Assembly (NCBI RefSeq): GCF_000730625.1
Contig: NZ_BBIT01000010.1
Location: 1 to 64,000, forward strand
Source: Pseudomonas oryzihabitans NBRC 102199
GTDB taxonomy: Bacteria; Pseudomonadota; Gammaproteobacteria; Pseudomonadales; Pseudomonadaceae
Direction: 5' to 3'
Length of the DNA: 64,000 nt
Shown here in pieces: positions 5,698 to 27,588 of the stretch. The position numbers and the translations under genes are program-made. Under the pieces are notes generated by a model. That model was given only the letters and a program-made list of their open reading frames with translations. It did not search any database and was not told where the DNA came from. Position 1 is the first letter of the stretch. Each line of letters opens with the position of its first letter.

Positions 5698-7977
5698 ATG
5701 TTGAACGCACCACGCCTCACCGCACTCATGCTCGGCCTGGGACTGGCGGTCAGCGCCACCCTCGCCCCGGCGCAGGACAGGGATCCGGCACGCGCCTACG
5801 TCGACGCCCTGCTGGCGAAGATGACCCTGGAGGAAAAGATCGGCCAGCTCAATCTGGTGAGCGTCGGGCCGGACTATCCCAAGGAAGCCATCATGGCGGA
5901 CATCCGCGCCGGCAAGGTGGGCGCCATGTTCAACACCGTGACCCGCCCCGATATCCGCCAGATGCAGGACCAGATCGCCCACAGCCGGCTGAAGATCCCG
6001 CTGTTCTATGCCTATGACGTCATCCACGGCATGCGCACCATCTTCCCCATCAACCTGGGCCTGGCCAGCACCTGGAATCTCGACGCCATCGCCACCAGCG
6101 GGCGCATCTCCGCCCTGGAAGCGGCGGCCGATGGCCTCAACCTGACCTTTTCCCCCACCGTCGACGTCACCCGCGAGCCGCGCTGGGGCCGTGCCTCGGA
6201 AACCTTTGGCGAAGACACCTGGCTGACCTCGCGCATCGGCGCCACCCTGGTGCACGCCTACCAGGGCAAGGACCTTCGCGCCCCCGACAGTCTCATGGCC
6301 AGCATCAAGCACTTCGGTGGCTATGGCGCCGTGGAAGCCGGCCGTGACTACAGCAACGTCGACATGAGTCCGCAGCGACTCATGCAGGACTACCTGCCGC
6401 CCTATCGCGCCGCCGCCGAGGCCGGTGCCGGAGCAGTGATGGTGGCGCTCAACAGCATCAACGGCGTCCCGGCCACGGCCAATCGCTGGCTGCTGCAGGA
6501 CCTCTTGCGCAAGGACTGGAACTACCAGGGCCTGCTGATCAGCGACCACGGCGCCATCAACGAGCTGGTGCTGCACGGGGTGGCCAAGGACACCCGCGAC
6601 GCCGCCGAACAGGCGCTCAAGGCCGGCGTCGAGCTGAACATGCACGACGACGTCTACGGCAAGCAGCTGCCCGCCCTGCTGGCCGCCGGCAAGGTGACCC
6701 AGGCCGAGATCGACCAGGCCGTGCGCGACATGCTCTTGACCAAGTACCGCATGGGCCTGTTCGACGATCCCTATCGCCGGCTGCAGGGCCAGGATCCGGC
6801 CGACACCAACGCCGAATCGCGGCTGCACCGCGCCGAGGCGCGTCAGGTGGCCCGCGAGAGCCTGGTGCTGCTGAAGAACGAAAAGGCCGTGCTGCCACTG
6901 CGCAAGGGCGCCACCCTGGCGGTGGTCGGCCCGCTGGCCGACAGTCCGCGCGACGTCATGGGCAACTGGTCCGCCGCCGGCGTGGCCGCCCAGGCCGTCT
7001 CCATCCGCCGCGGCCTGGAAAACGCCGTGGCCGGTCAGGGCAAGGTGCTCTATGCCAAGGGCGCCAACCTGCTGGACGACCGCGATGTGCTGGCCTACCT
7101 GAACTCCTACGAACCGGCGGTCGCCGTGGATCCGCGCAGCGCCAGCGAACTGATCGCCGAAGCCGTGGCCACCGCGCGCCAGGCCGAGGTGGTGGTGGCC
7201 GTGGTCGGCGAATCCCAGGGCATGGCCCACGAGGCCTCCAGCCGCGCCCGCATCAGCGTGCCCGACACCCAGCGCGAGCTGATCAAGGCGCTCAAGGCCA
7301 CCGGCAAACCGCTGGTGCTGGTGCTGATGAACGGCCGCCCGCTGGCGCTGGAATGGGAGCAGGAACAGGCCAACGCCCTGCTGGAAGCCTGGTTCCCCGG
7401 CACCGAAGGCGGCAACGCCGTGGCCGATGTGCTGTTCGGCGACCACAACCCCTCCGGCAAGCTGACCATGACCTTTCCCCGTGAAGTGGGCCAGGTGCCG
7501 CTGTACTACAACCACCTGAGCAGCGGTCGCCCCTTCGATGCGGCCAAGCCGAACAAGTACACCTCGCGCTACTTCGACATCGTCAACGGTCCGCTCTACC
7601 CCTTCGGCTACGGCCTGAGCTACACCTCCTTCGAGGTCTCGGCGCCGCAGCTGTCCAGCGCCACCCTGAAGAAGGGCGATACCCTGACCGCCAGGGTCAC
7701 GGTCAAGAACACCGGCAGCCGCGCCGGCGCTACCGTGGTGCAGCTCTATCTGCACGACGTGACCGCCTCCCTGGCGCGACCGGTCAAGGAGCTCAAGGGC
7801 TTCCAGAAGGTGATGCTGCAACCGGGCGAGAGTCGCGAGCTGGACTTCCCCATCACCGAGGCGGACCTGCGCTTCTACAACAACGACCTCAAGCTGGTCT
7901 CGGAGCCGGGCGAGTTCAGGGTGATGGTCGGCCTGGATTCGGAGCGGGTGCGCGAGGGGCGTTTCACGCTGCTCTGA
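5698..7977 (+). CDS. bglX: Periplasmic beta-glucosidase, glycoside hydrolase family 3
   Basis: A 759-residue exported GH3 enzyme, the expected length for periplasmic BglX, which releases terminal beta-D-glucose from oligosaccharides. A signal peptide occupies about residues 1-25 (cleavage after APA). The N-terminal barrel carries KHFGGYG (Lys204-His205) and the nucleophile Asp283 in LLISDHGAI. The C-terminal half has the alpha/beta sandwich and an FnIII-like domain (about 660-755). The start ATG at 5698 has only a weak GGGGA upstream, but it gives a clean signal peptide whereas the longer frame from 5629 does not. It is followed directly by a REP cluster. Confidence 0.93.
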   Translation: MLNAPRLTALMLGLGLAVSATLAPAQDRDPARAYVDALLAKMTLEEKIGQLNLVSVGPDYPKEAIMADIRAGKVGAMFNTVTRPDIRQMQDQIAHSRLKIPLFYAYDVIHGMRTIFPINLGLASTWNLDAIATSGRISALEAAADGLNLTFSPTVDVTREPRWGRASETFGEDTWLTSRIGATLVHAYQGKDLRAPDSLMASIKHFGGYGAVEAGRDYSNVDMSPQRLMQDYLPPYRAAAEAGAGAVMVALNSINGVPATANRWLLQDLLRKDWNYQGLLISDHGAINELVLHGVAKDTRDAAEQALKAGVELNMHDDVYGKQLPALLAAGKVTQAEIDQAVRDMLLTKYRMGLFDDPYRRLQGQDPADTNAESRLHRAEARQVARESLVLLKNEKAVLPLRKGATLAVVGPLADSPRDVMGNWSAAGVAAQAVSIRRGLENAVAGQGKVLYAKGANLLDDRDVLAYLNSYEPAVAVDPRSASELIAEAVATARQAEVVVAVVGESQGMAHEASSRARISVPDTQRELIKALKATGKPLVLVLMNGRPLALEWEQEQANALLEAWFPGTEGGNAVADVLFGDHNPSGKLTMTFPREVGQVPLYYNHLSSGRPFDAAKPNKYTSRYFDIVNGPLYPFGYGLSYTSFEVSAPQLSSATLKKGDTLTARVTVKNTGSRAGATVVQLYLHDVTASLARPVKELKGFQKVMLQPGESRELDFPITEADLRFYNNDLKLVSEPGEFRVMVGLDSERVREGRFTLL

Positions 7978-15038: not shown

Positions 15039-17039
15039 ATGGCCTTGAACACCATTCGGACCCGCTACACCCTGATCTTCCTCGGCTTCATCGGCGCGAC
15101 CCTCGCGGCCACCGTCATCGGCATTCGCCTGTGGGTGACGCCGGACCTGGTCGCCGCCGGTGAATCCGCCGTGCTCACCCGCGTCAACGAGGTGGGCACC
15201 CGCATCTATCGCGAACTCAACCAGATCCAGGCGCAGCAGCGCTCCATCACCCAGACCGTGCCGCTGCTGGACAGCGCCGCCATCGACCGGGTGCTGCCCG
15301 GCCTGGTGGACCAGTACGGCGATGCCAAGGTGTTCGGCGGCGGCATCTGGCCGCTGCCCAACCAGCGCGAGCAGGGTCGCGACAAGTTCAGCACCTTCTA
15401 TCACCGCGATGCCGGCGGAAAGCTGATCGTCAACACGCACTGGAACTCCCCCGAGTCGCTCAACTACTGGGAGCAACCCTGGTTCCAGGCTGGCCTCAAG
15501 GCTCCCGCCGGCCAGTGCGTCTGGGCCGCCGCCTACAAGGACGCCGCCAGCGCCGAGCCGCGCACCAACTGCGCCATGGCCATCCAGCGCGACGGCAAGG
15601 CCTTTGGCGTCTCGACCATCGACCTCACCCTGGGCTTCTTCAACCCCCTGGTGGACAGCCTGCGCAAGGAACTCGACGACACCGACATGATGATCGTCGA
15701 GGCCGACGGCAAGATCCTCAGCAACCTCAGCGAACTCGGCGATTCGCAGATCCTGAACAACGTCTCGGCCTATGCCACCCGTTCGCCCTTCGTCGCCGCC
15801 ATCCAGCAGAACCTCGGCAAGCTCAAGGGCGAGGCCGTGGTGCGCGACACCTATGTCGACGAGCACGGCACGCCCCACACCTTCTTCCTGCGCCCGCTGG
15901 CCGGCACCCCCTGGCTGCTGGCCACGGCGCTGCCCACCTCGCTCATCGCGGCGACCAACACCGGTATCCTCAAGACCCTGGCGGCGATCCAGCTGCCGCT
16001 GGTCCTGCTGCTGGTAGGCATCATGGTGCTGGCGCTCGGCAAGCTGATGGGTCGCCTGGGCCTGCTGCAACGCAACATCGAATCCCTGTCCGCCGGCGAC
16101 GCCGACCTGACCCGGCGCATCCCGGTGCACGGCCAGGACGAGGTGGACGCGGTGGCCGGCGCGGTCAACGGCTTCATCGGCTATCTGCAGCGGCTGATCG
16201 GCGAGGTGGGCGACGCCACCGACCGCATCGACACCGGTCTCAAGCAACTGCACGGCCAGGCCCAGCAGAACGGTGCCATCCTGGCCCGCCATGCCAGCGA
16301 GACCGACCAGGCGGTGACCGCCATCACCGAGATGAGCGCCACCTCCGACTCCGTGGCGCGCAGTGCCAGCGATACCGCCACCCTCACCCAGGCCGCCAAC
16401 GGCCAGGCCGAGCGTTCCCGCGCGGTGGTCCAGCAGGCCTCGGCCAGCGTGCTGGCCCTGGTGGATCAGGTGGAAGACGCCACCCTCAAGGTGCAGGCCA
16501 TGCAGAGCGATGCCCAGCGCATCAACGACGTGCTCGGGGTGATCGGCGGGATTGCCGGTCAGACCAACCTGCTGGCGCTCAACGCGGCCATTGAGGCGGC
16601 CCGGGCCGGCGAACAGGGTCGCGGCTTCGCGGTGGTGGCCGACGAGGTCCGCGCCCTGGCCGGCCGTACCCAGCAGAGCACCGCCGAGATCAACGAGATG
16701 CTCAACCGGTTGCAGCAGGGGGTGAGTTCCGCGGTCGCGGCCATGGAAATGACCAAGGCCAGTTGCCAGAGCACTGCCGAGCGCACCCGCGAGGTCACCG
16801 AAGGCCTGGACGAGATGAGCGGTTCGGTGGTGCGCATCAGCGATCTCTCAACTCAGATCGCCGCAGCGGCCGAAGAGCAGAGCGTGGTGGCCGGCGAGAT
16901 CAACCAGAACATGGTTGCCGTGCGCCATATCGTCGACGACCTGGTCACCAGCGGTCAGCGCACCGCCGAGAGTACCGCGGCGGTGCAGTCGTCCAACGAG
17001 CAGCTGATCGCGGTGGTCCGGCGCTTCCGGGTGAGGTGA
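15039..17039 (+). CDS. Methyl-accepting chemotaxis protein with Cache sensor
   Basis: A 666-residue transmembrane chemoreceptor. TM1 is about residues 11-30, a large periplasmic double-Cache-type ligand domain runs to about 305, and TM2 ([15 protein letters not shown]) follows. A HAMP domain begins near 335, and the cytoplasmic signalling hairpin contains the conserved tip [20 protein letters not shown] and the block [18 protein letters not shown]. It ends in VVRRFRV with no C-terminal CheR/CheB-binding pentapeptide. AGGAG lies seven bases before the ATG. A sigma-28 promoter precedes it and an intrinsic terminator follows. The ligand is unknown; Cache receptors often bind amino acids or organic acids. 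Confidence 0.95.
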
Positions 17040-17057: not shown

Positions 17058-17087
17058 AAAAAGCCGGGCACTGCGCCCGGCTTTTTC
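17058..17087 (+). terminator. Intrinsic terminator after chemoreceptor gene
   Basis: The arms AAAAAGCCGGGC and GCCCGGCTTTTT form a strong 12-bp stem around a six-base loop, with the 3' arm ending in five T residues. It lies 19 bases after the receptor stop codon. Confidence 0.92.
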
Positions 17088-17092
17088 GTTTC

Positions 17093-17234
17093 AGAACCTG
17101 TTCACGATCTCGCGAGCTAGAGACAAACAAGGCAAAAACGCCTGAGGAAGCGGAGTTTACAAGTGGTAAATGAGCATTCCGAAGGCGTTTTTAACGCAGT
17201 TTGGCCGACGCGCAGCAGATCGTGGATAGGTTCT
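17093..17234. repeat. Structured 142-bp repeat, copy 1 (MITE-like)
   Basis: The terminal arms AGAACCTGTTCACGATCT (17093-17110) and AGATCGTGGATAGGTTCT (17217-17234) pair over 18 positions, with two G-U pairs. Inside is a second stem AAAAACGCC/GGCGTTTTT and a central hairpin TTTAC-AAGTG-GTAAA. A second copy lies at 27442-27583 with compensatory changes in the stems. The element ends on the first base of the BetT-type gene's stop codon read from the other strand. No transposase is present. Function unknown. Confidence 0.88.
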
Positions 17235-19207
17235 CAGCCCACCAGATGCAGAAAATGCATATGGCGCTCGTACTGGTCGAGGATGTCGCCGATGACGTCC
17301 TCGCGGGACCAGCCCATGACGTCATGGTCCTGGCCACCCTCGCGCAGATAGACCTGGGCGCGGAAGTACTTGCGCTCCTCCCCCGGCTCGCTGCCCATGA
17401 CGAAACTGGGCATGGCGTAGGCGTGGGGTCTGACCTGGTAGACGAACTCGGGCTGCTCGGCCGGACCGACATACAGCCGCACCCCGCCATCCTCGCGGTC
17501 TTCCACGCCACAGACATAGCCCTGCTTGCGCCACTCCTCGGCCACCGCCAGGCAAGCCGGCTTGGCCACCTCGCCGATGAAGCGCACCACGTGGCTGCGC
17601 CGCGGAAACATCGCCAGACCGCGCAGGCGGCGCTGCCAGCCGCCCGGCGTACGGCTGGTGGGCGGGGTGAGACTCAGCGACTGATGGCGCAGGCCGCGCT
17701 TGGTGGCGTCCAGCTTCAGGGCCTTGAGCAGGCCATGCATGCTGAACAGCAGGGCGAGGGTGAACGGCAGGGCACTGGCGATGGTGGCGGTCTGCAGGGC
17801 CTTGAGACCATCGGCCAGCAGCAGCGCGATGGCCACCAGCCCCATGCTGGCGCCCCAGAACACCCGCTGCCAGACCGGCGTCTGGTCCTGGCCGCCGGAG
17901 GCCAGCATGTCCACCACCATGGCGCCGGAATCGGCGGAGGTGACAAAGAACACCACCACCATGACGATGGCGATCAGCGAGATCACGCTGGCGAAGGGGA
18001 AGTGCTCGAGGAAGGCGAACAGCGCCAGGGAGCTGTCCTGGGATACCGCGGCGGCCAGATCGGTGATGCCCTCGGTGAGGATCATGTGGATCGCCGTGTT
18101 GCCGAACACCGTCATCCACAGCAGGGTGAAGCCGGCCGGCACCAGCAGCACGCCGGAGACGAATTCGCGGATGGTCCGCCCGCGCGAGATGCGCGCGATG
18201 AACAGCCCGACGAAGGGCGACCAGGCCAGCCACCAGCCCCAGTAGAACAGCGTCCAGCCGCCGATCCAGTCGGTGGGTCGATAGGCGTTGAGGTTGAGGG
18301 TGCGGCTGACGATCTCGCTGAGATAGCCCCCGGTGTTCTCGACGAAGGTCTGCAGGATCAGCACCGTGGGGCCGAGGATGACCACGGTCAGCATCAGCAG
18401 CACCGCCAGGCCCAGATTGAGCTCCGACAGCCGCCGGACGCCCTTGTCCAGCCCCGAGACCACCGAGAGGGTGGCCAGCGCCGTGGTGACGACGATCAGG
18501 CCGATCTGCACCGGGGTGGACACCGGCACGCCGAACAGCACGTTGAGCCCGGTGTTGATCTGCGAGACGCCGAAGCCCAGGGAGGTGGCGACGCCCAGCA
18601 CCGTGCCGATGATGGCGAAGATGTCCACGGCATGGCCGATGGGCCCATGGATGCGCTCGCCGATCAGCGGATAGAGCGCCGATCTCAGGGTCAGCGGCAG
18701 GCCGTGGCGATAGCTGAAGTAGGCCAGGATCAGGGCGACGATGGCATAGATCGACCAGGCGTGCAGGCCCCAGTGGAAGAAGGTGATGCGCATGGCCTGG
18801 CGCGCGGCGTCCACCGTCTGGCCATCGGCATAGGGCGGGTTGAGAAAGTGCATCACCGGCTCGGCGACGCCAAAGAACATAAGACCGATGCCCATGCCGG
18901 CGGAAAACAGCATGGCGAACCAGGTGGTGTTGGCGTAGTCCGGCTCACTATGGTCCGGGCCGAGCTTGATGTCGCCATAGCGACTCATGCCGAGAAACAC
19001 CACGGTGCCGAGGATGATGGCCACGGCGAGGATGTAGAACCAGCTGAGGTTGGTGATGATCCAGCCCTGGATGGCGGCGAACAGCCACTGGGCGTTGGCC
19101 TGGAACAGGCTGGCATAGAGCACCAGCACGAGTAGCAGCAAGGTCGAGGTCCAGAAGACCGGAGGACTGAAGGTGGGACGAGCGGCGGATTCTCCCTGGC
19201 CGGTCAT
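17234..19207 (-). CDS. betT: BCCT-family choline/betaine transporter
   Basis: A 657-residue inner-membrane transporter of the betaine-choline-carnitine family with twelve transmembrane segments and a cytoplasmic C-terminal extension of about 150 residues, as in BetT. Diagnostic segments are FSAGMGIGLMFFGVAEP, the conserved block near residue 180 (FFHWGLHAWSIYAIVALI) and FYWGWWLAWSPFVGLFIARI. It is predicted to import choline for glycine betaine synthesis under osmotic stress. I chose ATG 19207, with AGGAG seven bases upstream, rather than the ATG at 19225. No bet oxidation genes are in the window. Its 3' end abuts repeat copy 1. Confidence 0.92.
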   Translation of the reverse strand: MTGQGESAARPTFSPPVFWTSTLLLLVLVLYASLFQANAQWLFAAIQGWIITNLSWFYILAVAIILGTVVFLGMSRYGDIKLGPDHSEPDYANTTWFAMLFSAGMGIGLMFFGVAEPVMHFLNPPYADGQTVDAARQAMRITFFHWGLHAWSIYAIVALILAYFSYRHGLPLTLRSALYPLIGERIHGPIGHAVDIFAIIGTVLGVATSLGFGVSQINTGLNVLFGVPVSTPVQIGLIVVTTALATLSVVSGLDKGVRRLSELNLGLAVLLMLTVVILGPTVLILQTFVENTGGYLSEIVSRTLNLNAYRPTDWIGGWTLFYWGWWLAWSPFVGLFIARISRGRTIREFVSGVLLVPAGFTLLWMTVFGNTAIHMILTEGITDLAAAVSQDSSLALFAFLEHFPFASVISLIAIVMVVVFFVTSADSGAMVVDMLASGGQDQTPVWQRVFWGASMGLVAIALLLADGLKALQTATIASALPFTLALLFSMHGLLKALKLDATKRGLRHQSLSLTPPTSRTPGGWQRRLRGLAMFPRRSHVVRFIGEVAKPACLAVAEEWRKQGYVCGVEDREDGGVRLYVGPAEQPEFVYQVRPHAYAMPSFVMGSEPGEERKYFRAQVYLREGGQDHDVMGWSREDVIGDILDQYERHMHFLHLVG

Positions 19208-19327
19208 AAAAGGGCTCCTGTTCATGAAGTGCGCACAGGTTGACTGCCCTCGCCCGTGATCGTTTCGCTGGCGACGCTGCGGGAAGGGCGCATGCCGCTG
19301 TGTGCTACCGCACCAATCGCTGGGGCG

Positions 19328-24675: not shown

Positions 24676-26121
24676 ATGTTCGGATCGCTGCGCAGTCGTC
24701 TGATTGCCCTGCTGCTGATGCTCGGCGGCATGGCCGTCGGGGTCGGCTGGCTGATGATCCTGCTCTTGCGCCAGTCGGAAAGCGCCCAGCTCGGCCAGGC
24801 CACGGTGGAAGCCGAGCAGGCCTGCCAGGCCATCGCCAGCAGCTATCGCTTCTACAGCAATGGCTGGTCCGGCCCTACCGCGGGCCTCGCCGACCCGTCG
24901 CTGCAGCGCAGTCTCGGGGGCGTGGCCAGTGTCGCCCTGCTGCGCTATCGCGGCATGGCCGGCGGCCTCTGGCAGGAACAGGCGGGACTGCTGGCCGATG
25001 CCAGTCCCTTCCCCCTGACCGCCGCCGAACGCCAGCACCTGGCCGATCTCTCCGCCGCGACCCTGGCCGAGGCACGCAGCCTGAGCGACAGCTTCAGCGC
25101 GGACGGCGCCACGGTGCTGGTGGCCGCCTGCCCGCTGTCCGGGCCCATTGCCGATCTCGCCGCCTGGACCCTGACCCGCCTGACCTTCGCCGAGGGCAGC
25201 GGGCAGCGCCAGCTGAAACTGGGCCTGGGCCTGCTGCTGCTGGCCATGCTCGCCGCCACCCTGCTGCTCGGCCGACTCACCTGGCAGTGGTCGCGCCATG
25301 TCGCGCGGGTCGAGCGCGATCTGGGCGCCAATGCCAGCCATGACCTGCCCACCCTCGCCCTGACTGGCGAGCGCGAGCTGGACCGGGTGCTGGCGGCGCT
25401 CAACCAGGCCGGGCAGCGCCTGACCCAGGCCCGGGACGAGGCCCAGCGATTGACCACCCAGGTCCACGCCAGTGAACGGCTGGCCGCCCTCGGTCGGGTG
25501 GCCGCCGGGGTCGCCCACGAGATCCGCAACCCTCTGGCCGCCATGCGCCTCAAGGCCGAGAACGCCCTGGCCGGCGACAGCGGCCGGCAGCAGAAGGCGC
25601 TGGACGCCATCCTCACCCAGGTCACCCGGCTGGACCGCCTGCTGCGCCGCCTGCTCGACCTCACCCAGCCGCTGCACCTGCAACCCACTGTCATCGCGCT
25701 GCCGGCCTTTTGCCGCGAGGTGCTGGCCGGTCACGAAGACCAGGCCGCCCAGCGCGGCATCCGCCTGACCGCCCGGGTGGCCGTCGAAGAGGGCTGGTTC
25801 GATCGCGACGCCCTGGCCCGCGCCCTGGACAACCTGCTGCTCAACGCCCTCCAGGCCGCCCCGGCAGACAGCGAAATCCGTCTCGACGCCAGCCGGCGCG
25901 GCGACTGGCTGGTGCTGGCGGTGGAAGACGAAGGCCAGGGGCCACCCGCCGAGTTGCGCGCCCAGCTCTTCGAGCCCTTCGTCACCGGTCGCCCGGAGGG
26001 CACCGGCCTGGGCCTGGCCCTGGTCCGCGAGACCGCCCGCGCCCACGGCGGCGAGGCGCGACTGATCGATCCCTCCCTTCCCACGCGCTTCGAGATCCTC
26101 CTGCCATGCCAACCCTGCTGA
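24676..26121 (+). CDS. Sensor histidine kinase of a sigma-54 two-component system
   Basis: A 481-residue membrane histidine kinase. TM1 is about residues 9-31, a periplasmic sensor region of about 150 residues follows, and TM2 is about 181-199. A short linker leads to the DHp helix with phospho-acceptor His281 (GVAHEIRNPLAAMRLKAENAL) and the ATPase domain (DNLLLNALQAAP as N box; GTGLGLALVRE as G2). The sensor has no recognised named fold. ATG 24676 is preferred to 24634 because it begins just before the TM1 positive charges. The last 16 bases overlap the response-regulator gene. The signal is unknown. Confidence 0.9.
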   Translation: MFGSLRSRLIALLLMLGGMAVGVGWLMILLLRQSESAQLGQATVEAEQACQAIASSYRFYSNGWSGPTAGLADPSLQRSLGGVASVALLRYRGMAGGLWQEQAGLLADASPFPLTAAERQHLADLSAATLAEARSLSDSFSADGATVLVAACPLSGPIADLAAWTLTRLTFAEGSGQRQLKLGLGLLLLAMLAATLLLGRLTWQWSRHVARVERDLGANASHDLPTLALTGERELDRVLAALNQAGQRLTQARDEAQRLTTQVHASERLAALGRVAAGVAHEIRNPLAAMRLKAENALAGDSGRQQKALDAILTQVTRLDRLLRRLLDLTQPLHLQPTVIALPAFCREVLAGHEDQAAQRGIRLTARVAVEEGWFDRDALARALDNLLLNALQAAPADSEIRLDASRRGDWLVLAVEDEGQGPPAELRAQLFEPFVTGRPEGTGLGLALVRETARAHGGEARLIDPSLPTRFEILLPCQPC

Positions 26122-27443
26122 TCATCGATGACGACGCCGGTCTGCGCGACGCCCTGGCGGAAACCGCCGCGGACCAGGGCTACCGGGTGCTGCAGGCCGA
26201 CGGGGGCGAAGCGGGCTTGCAGCTCCTGACGCAGGAGGCGGTGGACGCCGTGCTGCTCGACCTGCGCATGCCCGGGCTGGATGGCCTGGAGGTGCTGGCG
26301 CGCATCCGCGCCCTCCCCGAACCACCGGCGGTCACGGTGCTGACCGCCTTCGCCAGCGCCGGCAACACCATCGAGGCCATGCGCCTGGGCGCCTTCGACC
26401 ACCTCACCAAGCCCATCGGCCGTGACGAGCTGATCCGGGTACTGGCCGGCATGACCGCCCAGCGCCGTCCGGCCAGTGCGCCACCGGCCGCGGTCGAGGG
26501 CCATACCCTGGTGGGCGGCAGCGACGCCCTGCGCCAGGTGCAGAAGACCATCGGCCGCCTGGTGGACAGCGAGGCCACGGTGCTGGTGACCGGCGAGACC
26601 GGCACCGGCAAGGAACTGGTGGCCCGGGCCATCCACGAGCATGGCAAGAGACGCGGGGCGCCCTTCGTGGCGGTCAATTGCGCGGCCATCCCGCCGGATC
26701 TGCTGGAAAGCGAACTCTTCGGCCATGTGCGCGGCGCCTTCAGCGGGGCCACCGCCAATCGCCTCGGTGCCTTTCGCGAAGCCCAGGGCGGCACCCTCTT
26801 TCTCGACGAGATCGGCGACATGCCGCTGCCGATGCAGGCCAAGATCCTGCGCGCCCTGCAGGAACGCGAGGTGACGCCGGTGGGTGGCGCGCCGGTGCGC
26901 CTGGACGTGCGCCTGGTGGCCGCCACCCACCGCGACCTGGCCCAGCGGGTCGCCAGCGGCGACTTCCGCGAGGACCTCTTCTATCGCCTGCACGTGGTAC
27001 CCATCCACCTGCCGGCGCTGCGCGAGCGGCGGGCCGACATCCTGCCGCTGGCCGAACACTTCCTCGCCCCCAGCGGCCGCGTCCTGGCGGACGATGCCGC
27101 CGCCCTGCTCTTGCGCCACCCCTGGCCGGGCAACGTGCGCGAATTGCGCAACGCCATCCAGCGCGCCGCGACCCTGGCCCAGGGCGAACGCATCGTCGCC
27201 GCCGACCTGGCCTTTCTGCAGGGCGAGCCCCCGGATGCGGTCGCCATCGACGCCAGCTGGCCGGAGGAGACCCTGGCCGAAGCCACCGCGCGCCTGGAAC
27301 GCCTGCTGATCGAGCGCGCCCTGCAGCGCAGCGGCGGCAATCGCGCCGAAGCGGCCCGCCGCCTGGGCATCCATCGCCAGCTGCTCTACACCAAGCTGAG
27401 TCGGCTGGGCCTGGGTGTCGGCGCAGACGACAGTCCCGCTTAG
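26106..27443 (+). CDS. NtrC-type sigma-54 response regulator
   Basis: A 445-residue bacterial enhancer-binding protein. The receiver domain has Asp52 (LLDLRMPG) and Lys102 (HLTKPIG). The AAA+ domain shows Walker A GETGTGKE (163-170), Walker B LFLDEIGD (Asp234) and the sigma-54 contact loop as GAFSGA (210-215), where serine replaces the usual threonine of GAFTGA. A Fis-type helix-turn-helix ends the protein (GGNRAEAARRLGIHRQLLYTKL). It overlaps the kinase gene by 16 bases. A -24/-12 promoter with tandem upstream sites lies 150-260 bases beyond its stop, so its target is probably the exported protein gene that follows. Confidence 0.93.
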   Translation: MPTLLIIDDDAGLRDALAETAADQGYRVLQADGGEAGLQLLTQEAVDAVLLDLRMPGLDGLEVLARIRALPEPPAVTVLTAFASAGNTIEAMRLGAFDHLTKPIGRDELIRVLAGMTAQRRPASAPPAAVEGHTLVGGSDALRQVQKTIGRLVDSEATVLVTGETGTGKELVARAIHEHGKRRGAPFVAVNCAAIPPDLLESELFGHVRGAFSGATANRLGAFREAQGGTLFLDEIGDMPLPMQAKILRALQEREVTPVGGAPVRLDVRLVAATHRDLAQRVASGDFREDLFYRLHVVPIHLPALRERRADILPLAEHFLAPSGRVLADDAAALLLRHPWPGNVRELRNAIQRAATLAQGERIVAADLAFLQGEPPDAVAIDASWPEETLAEATARLERLLIERALQRSGGNRAEAARRLGIHRQLLYTKLSRLGLGVGADDSPA

Positions 27444-27583
27444 AGCCTATTCAAAGTCTCGCGAGCTAGAGACAAACAAGGCGAAAATGACTGAGGAAGC
27501 GGAGTTTACGAGTGGTAAATGAGCATTCCGAAGCCATTTTCAACGCCGTTTGGCCGACGCGCAGCAGACTTTGGACAGGCTCT
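27442..27583. repeat. Structured 142-bp repeat, copy 2 (MITE-like)
   Basis: The arms AGAGCCTATTCAAAGTCT (27442-27459) and AGACTTTGGACAGGCTCT (27566-27583) pair. Compared with copy 1 at 17093-17234, about six stem pairs are changed on both sides so that pairing is kept, while the loops are nearly identical. The element starts within the TAG stop codon of the response-regulator gene. It may act as a 3'-end RNA structure or terminator; this is inference. Confidence 0.88.
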
Positions 27584-27588
27584 TAGGC

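Follow-up and report, generated by a model that had tools for sequence, protein, structure and literature searches.

The closest described counterparts of the element analysed here are short repeats of pseudomonads and enterobacteria. MITEPsy1 of Pseudomonas syringae pv. phaseolicola is about 100 bp long, has IS5-type ends, generates a 4-bp CTAG or YTAA duplication and moves in vivo, with homologues reported in P. stutzeri and other bacteria (PMC3189936). MITEPsy1 resembles our elements in being short and IS5-ended and differs in its printed ends, GGAAGGTCTGAAAAAGCC, which are unlike those of both families described below; none of 389 loci contains that printed end exactly. R178 of Pseudomonas fluorescens (101 bp, with internal inverted repeats) occurs in all three strains studied, and the intergenic repeats of that species favour tail-to-tail gene pairs (PMC2718517); its likeness to our elements, short and with internal inverted repeats, is one of description, not of sequence. 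ERIC (~127 bp) and YPAL (~168 bp) are short palindromic mobile elements of enterobacteria whose transcripts fold, and ERIC affects neighbouring mRNA (PMC2229807). The same source gives TA at the termini of ERIC and duplications of 3 to 26 bp for YPAL, unlike the TNA or CTAG duplications and IS5-type ends of the MITEs considered here. IS5-ended MITEs with CTAG or YTAA duplications, and repeats biased toward tail-to-tail gene pairs, are thus already known, and both MITEPsy1 and R178 may be previously published members of the group analysed here.

Here, we analysed a window of 64,000 nucleotides from Pseudomonas oryzihabitans NBRC 102199 (contig NZ_BBIT01000010.1, positions 1 to 64,000), which holds two copies of a 140-bp repeat, designated type A, with the following features.

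17091-17093: target duplication TCA, left of copy 1, judged from the sequence and the family-wide flank test
17094-17233, + strand: type-A MITE copy 1, 140 bp, its limits set by the TCA/TCA duplication
17094-17110, + strand: left terminal inverted repeat of copy 1, GAACCTGTTCACGATCT, the left arm of the outer stem
17134-17143, + strand: left arm of the inner stem of copy 1, AAAAACGCCT
17146-17181, + strand: conserved core hairpin of copy 1, GGAAGCGGAGTTTAC-N5-GTAAATGAGCATTCCG
17183-17192, + strand: right arm of the inner stem of copy 1, AGGCGTTTTT
17217-17233, + strand: right terminal inverted repeat of copy 1, the right arm of the outer stem
17234-19225, minus strand: BCCT transporter gene
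17234-17236: target duplication TCA, right of copy 1, which doubles as the TGA stop codon of that gene
27440-27442: target duplication TTA, left of copy 2
27443-27582, + strand: type-A MITE copy 2, 140 bp, starting on the final G of the TAG stop codon in gene 25710-27443
27583-27585: target duplication TTA, right of copy 2

Copy 1 has a chemotaxis receptor gene (15039-17039) on its left and the BCCT transporter gene on its right, and the gene whose TAG stop contains the first base of copy 2 encodes a sigma-54 response regulator. A sequence-only reading of the window had delimited the element as 17093-17234, one surplus base per side, and had described a fold from end to end; copy 1 is indeed predicted to fold at -66.5 kcal/mol, against a mean of -36.4 for dinucleotide shuffles, none of 200 reaching it (z -8.1). 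The same reading had reported about six compensatory pairs between the copies, and direct counting gives six, three in the ACGATCT/AAAGTCT segment, one near the end and two in the inner stem, with one inner pair of copy 2 mismatched on direct reading against copy 1. It was also right that the element ends on a stop codon, that of the BCCT transporter gene, and that it carries no transposase, 140 bp being too short to encode one. Within the window, Rfam has no match at gathering scores, and four loci with long copies gave only weak matches, all under gathering scores. A terminator scan returned two matches in copy 1, on the minus strand, and none in copy 2; A4/T4 tracts border the inner stem. 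A hairpin bearing A- and T-tracts at 17058-17086 (AAAAAGCCGGGCACTGCGCCCGGCTTTTT), immediately to the left of copy 1, was seen by eye and is absent from the terminator scan list; it is probably a native bidirectional terminator.

Searching the genome for further copies, as the sequence-only reading had called for, gave 43 matches to the element in the 5.03-Mb assembly (G000, 34 contigs), among them 30 type-A copies in which 30 left arms pair with 30 right arms. The longest of these is ~247 bp; since all 30 arm pairs lie at short distance and the genome has no PF13340 protein, an autonomous type-A copy in this genome was rejected. The long copies L040 (about 983-1232, 247 bp) and L034 (about 899-1118, 217 bp) contain an extra domain, GGGAGTAACAG...GGCCCGAAGGGTGAGCGCTAGCGAATC, unlike other copies. 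A second family, type B, has the inner part in common with type A but different ends and comprises 16 copies (18 rows, from which the spurious L029 and the divergent L016 were removed). L134 (about 7183-7342) has what seems to be a tandem pair of B-like elements, separated by ~140 bp. Among 57 relatives, 35 have a match to the element, with widely differing copy number.

The ends of both families are shared with complete IS5-type insertion sequences. Type-A ends are found on an 833-bp IS in G001 (L297/L314; TGA/TGA flanks, GAGCCTGTTCACGATCTTT ends, DUF4096 and DDE_Tnp_1 frames) and on an 841-bp IS in G183 (L315; TTA/TTA flanks, same ends), whereas a related 846-bp IS of G007, from the same genus (L316; TTA/TTA flanks), has the end variant ...TTCAAAATCTTTT, and L318, L319 and L321 supply more end variants of related IS; the complete type-A-like IS of relatives thus span 833-846 bp. 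The positions that vary among these IS ends fall among those varying between MITE arms, and the left and right arms of copy 1 are identical to the L297 IS end at 16/17 and 14/17 bases. The ends of type-B MITEs match a second IS5-type IS with 906-909 bp between its repeats, CTAG on both sides and GTTCTGTACGAAAAGT ends, found at six loci (L327, L330, L334, L335, L338 and L339). Between the two transposases, identity amounts to 36% across 72 aa and 22% across 114 aa. Matches to PF13340 (DUF4096) and PF01609 (DDE_Tnp_1) mark the partner transposase as IS5-type, and both transposases match NCBIfam NF033580 (transpos_IS5_3), with three of four frames passing the cut-off and the first frame of the type-A IS below it. 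IS5-family IS with these domains thus have the ends and target duplications of types A and B, and the MITEs differ in having no transposase. Duplication of TNA or YTAR would presumably indicate the IS1031 or IS5 subgroup. No core hairpin was found in the IS examined.

Across a pool of 163 type-A copies (30 from this genome, 27 from G003, 26 from G008, 50 from named species and 30 from others, some being orthologues), 57 have identical 3-bp flanks, where shuffling gives 21.4 on average and 38 at most. Five pairs of loci supply candidate empty sites, L024/L082 and L164/L069 being the clearest and L002/L062, L033/L139 and L007/L247 less clear; L013/L120 was left out because its alignment is too poor. 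In the empty site L082, one TTAG is common to two convergent stop codons, whereas in the filled L024 each gene has a separate stop. That insertion creates the stop codon is ruled out, as the genes end at the same place in the clear empty sites. Today, IS and MITE presence do not coincide: PF13340 proteins number zero in our genome, G003, G008 and G009 although MITE copies are present, and PF13340 does occur in G001 and G012, each with a single MITE match. Because our genome has no PF13340, the transposase that moved its copies is inferred from relatives. G006, of the same genus, has 81 exact TNAGAGCCTGTTCA ends versus 4 in our genome, a candidate recent amplification, and its 22 PF13340 matches belong to a different IS. 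The PF13340 element repeated in G006 was rejected as a partner, its examined loci having no exact GAGCCTGTTCA ends; at L306, L308 and L310 of that genome, a 308-bp IS fragment is present as two inverted copies facing each other head to head, and this 308-bp sequence recurs at several contig ends.

We propose, with a probability of about 85%, that the element is a non-autonomous IS5-family MITE whose outer stem is its terminal inverted repeat and which was moved in trans by IS5-type transposases sharing its ends. At the level of sequence, it is demonstrable that the outer stem is a terminal inverted repeat, that insertion duplicated 3-bp TNA and that the element is too short for a transposase; the shared ends suggest movement in trans by IS5-type transposases. 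The transposase would recognise both ends, so that a MITE following another transposase would change both arms together, and the covariation of the outer stem is attributable to this recognition. Insertion would favour C-TRA-G, where TRA is a stop codon (TGA or TAA), largely in one polarity, which would leave copies flush with gene ends. Inside the ends, MITEs whose termini are of many kinds share a hairpin core, and internal modules seem to be swapped between copies in place. The core may be kept because the + strand hairpin promotes the spread of the MITE or lets its insertions be tolerated, and not for the sake of each neighbouring gene, a part of the proposal of which we are less certain.

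Covariation among the type-A copies is real. In 17 standard-length copies from our genome, 93.4% of 850 cells are paired versus 85.6% after shuffling, 70 cells are changed on both sides versus 22.9, 22/50 pairs have both-side changes versus 11.6, and the covariation score is 0.255 versus 0.111 for shuffled alignments, a control that leaves relatedness among copies in place, and 0.042-0.074 for slid structures. Change in place is a different matter: between orthologous copies it is mostly uncompensated. The outer stem was compared in 16 orthologue pairs (21 minus 4 missing and minus L161/L215, with a flank similarity of 0.31), and of 288 pair-cells, 269 are unchanged, 17 have single changes, 2 have double non-compensatory changes and none is compensatory, as against 2322 single, 947 double compensatory and 812 other double changes among the paralogues of our genome. 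The inner stem shows 3 compensatory changes in all between orthologues, of which two double changes, together with one loop base, separate copy 1 from both its orthologues and one separates L010/L139. In 8 of 14 orthologous groups (L003/L206, L004/L213, L005/L205, L010/L239/L139, L013/L252, L021/L216, L033/L199 and L162/L207), internal modules of 14 or 16 nt differ wholly between copies, which looks like conversion or exchange of parts between copies in place; some of the exchanged modules form hairpins of their own. Counted over 18 overlapping orthologue comparisons, differences affect 12/592 core sites, 93/1977 sites elsewhere in the element, 273/3809 in intergenic flanks and 2666/45678 in coding sequence, so that the likeness of the core in place could come from constraint or from conversion.

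The core hairpin extends well beyond the two families. Exact cores occur, among the matches listed, in Pseudomonas, Stutzerimonas, Vogesella, Chitinimonas, Chitinibacter and Pseudogulbenkiania. Of the 43 copies typed as neither A nor B (7 copies cut by locus ends were left out of the typing), several are A- or B-like, and at least 5 further end types are represented. Of 369 genomes taken from the whole class, 133, representing 108 of 272 genera, match a core model, R1, at an E-value of 0.001; of 398 taken from the whole phylum, 60 do so at 1e-5, 31 of them from other classes, these E-values being rough. At the class-wide loci L345-L373, inverted ends match at 13 or more of 16 bases in 27 of 29 and at all 16 in 12, their sequences being clearly distinct, which brings the end types, counted by eye and including A and B, to about ten. 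The inner hairpin, which lies outside the inverted repeats, covaries strongly across these end types: among 42 gapless cores whose ends differ, 97.9% of 924 cells are paired, and 114 cells are changed on both sides (31.7 after shuffling) versus 5 on one side, the alignment having been drawn from 78 rows by dropping false matches and out-of-register true cores (for example, L043, L123, L155, L195, L277 and L025). The internal loops are identical across end types. We infer that the core persisted in the MITEs as their ends came to match different IS5-type transposases, complete IS being tied to types A and B only. No protein gene conserved beside the core emerged among the named species; the clusters near it consisted of same-gene neighbours, unrelated genes or translated stretches of the element.

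If double-stranded ends alone mattered, G-T and A-C mismatches should be about equally frequent. On the + strand, however, G-T exceeds A-C by 117 to 39 in the outer arms (125 distinct in-register pairs) and by 59 to 23 in the inner arms (139 pairs); these counts exclude duplicates and out-of-register arms, the unfiltered figures being 184 versus 105 and 102 versus 68. Class-wide, leaving aside one nearly invariant G-T pair, the ratio is 10 to 1. Within the 14 orthologous groups, Watson-Crick to G-T differences number 19 and those involving A-C number 4; five of the 19 lie at inner position 10 in module-differing groups, and without these the comparison is 14 to 4 (p about 0.03, calculated by hand), some of the remaining G-T differences perhaps also stemming from conversion. 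Flanks are free of such a bias (C/T 34, A/G 33). These comparisons weaken the case for evolution in place free of structural constraint. The G-T excess speaks for a folded + strand, be it RNA or single-stranded DNA, and some selection on single-strand structure is likely, in addition to the mobile-element explanation and not in its place. The claim of the sequence-only reading that selection on structure, rather than simple mobile DNA, accounts for the repeat thus divides: its rejection of mobile DNA fails in view of TNA duplications, empty sites, many copies and IS5-family ends, and its structural half stands in part, the inner hairpin covarying across end types, G-T exceeding A-C on the + strand and the core being slow to change. 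In most stop-abutting type-A copies, the better-pairing + strand is antisense to the abutted gene, so that an ordinary 3′-UTR role is not the obvious reading.

The stop codons themselves were located with a home-made codon-usage gene caller, so the distances rest on approximate gene calls. In our genome, one end lies within -4 to +2 bp of a stop codon in 24 of 30 copies. Of the pooled copies, 110/163 touch a stop codon, the contact being through the right end alone in 90, the left alone in 12 and both ends in 8; the other 53 touch none, and the right-end distance is zero in 77. The right flank is TYA (TRA along the gene) in 72 of the 90 right-end copies; where neither end meets a stop, 18 copies have TYA there, 13 have TRA and 22 another triplet, so that the polarity is weaker away from stops. 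In element-free noncoding sequence, 150 of 472 CTRAG sites (32%) and 259 of 1609 YTRAR sites are at stops. The excess of 110/163 over 32% has p 3e-20 and that of 90 over 12 has p 6e-16, both values being too small because the copies are related. Type-B elements touch a stop in 12 of 16 copies, one via a weakly scored gene, and at the class-wide loci a crude test places stops at the terminus of 15 of 27 elements versus 18 of 270 windows further out. A CTRAG target explains part of this placement, and the remainder may reflect targeting or selection against insertions at other sites.

Could the covariation, that of the inner stem above all, have arisen without selection on structure, by copying from arm to arm (quasi-palindrome correction) combined with conversion between copies? 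The 114 both-side versus 5 one-side changes in the 42 cores, which imply that intermediates are rare, are what such copying would produce, as are the whole-module differences in 8 of 14 orthologous groups and the simultaneous appearance of two double changes and one loop base in copy 1 relative to both orthologues. Yet correction and conversion alone offer no reason why G-T mismatches should outnumber A-C on one strand (117:39 in the outer and 59:23 in the inner arms) or for identical internal loops across end types, and we consider this account, as a sufficient one, rather unlikely. Conversion also bears on the proposal that the repeat is a domesticated structured RNA, that is, a bidirectional terminator, 3′-UTR element or small RNA kept at each gene, with mobility explaining its arrival only. 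The low divergence of the core relative to intergenic flanks (12/592 versus 273/3809) speaks for domestication but could also be a product of conversion between copies; the 19 to 4 excess of G-T differences in place, the A4/T4 tracts beside the inner stem and the adjoining stop codons also fit. The outer stem, however, changes in place without compensation, the better-pairing strand is antisense to most abutted genes, terminator-like matches are confined to the minus strand of copy 1 and are lacking in copy 2, and Rfam has no match, all of which makes domestication improbable.

Movement as single-stranded DNA, as thought for REP/REPIN elements with RAYT transposases, would accommodate both the strand-asymmetric mismatches and the polarity at the target, given a single-strand intermediate. 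Against it stand the TNA and CTAG duplications and the ends resembling those of DDE-type IS5 elements; HUH-type single-strand transposition is not known to leave a target duplication, and we regard this mode as very improbable. The IS5-family MITE remains our preferred reading, but the covariation of the inner stem and the one-strand excess of G-T lie outside what transposase recognition of ends explains, the placement at stop codons is above what a CTRAG target predicts, and IS and MITE presence do not coincide today, all of which counts against it. Tentatively, and without regarding it as the probable outcome, we entertain the possibility that a one-strand hairpin module, acting as RNA or single-stranded DNA and shared across the class, makes MITEs of many IS5-type transposases succeed, remaining constant as the ends shift toward new transposases and guiding insertions to stop codons or making them tolerable at these sites.

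Among the open-access papers listed, we found no account of a core common to different end types, of such exact placement on stop codons or of such covariation, and words from the core sequence gave only chance-looking matches among the 20 of 48 papers listed. A search on covariation methods brought up no work on these elements. For the discovery of structured RNAs, the results are a caution: terminal inverted repeats that follow different transposases yield strong covariation without the need for an RNA function. For mobile element biology, they point to a very widespread superfamily of MITEs with one conserved hairpin and varying ends, and raise the question of why the same internal structure persists under different transposases and why these elements sit so exactly on stop codons.
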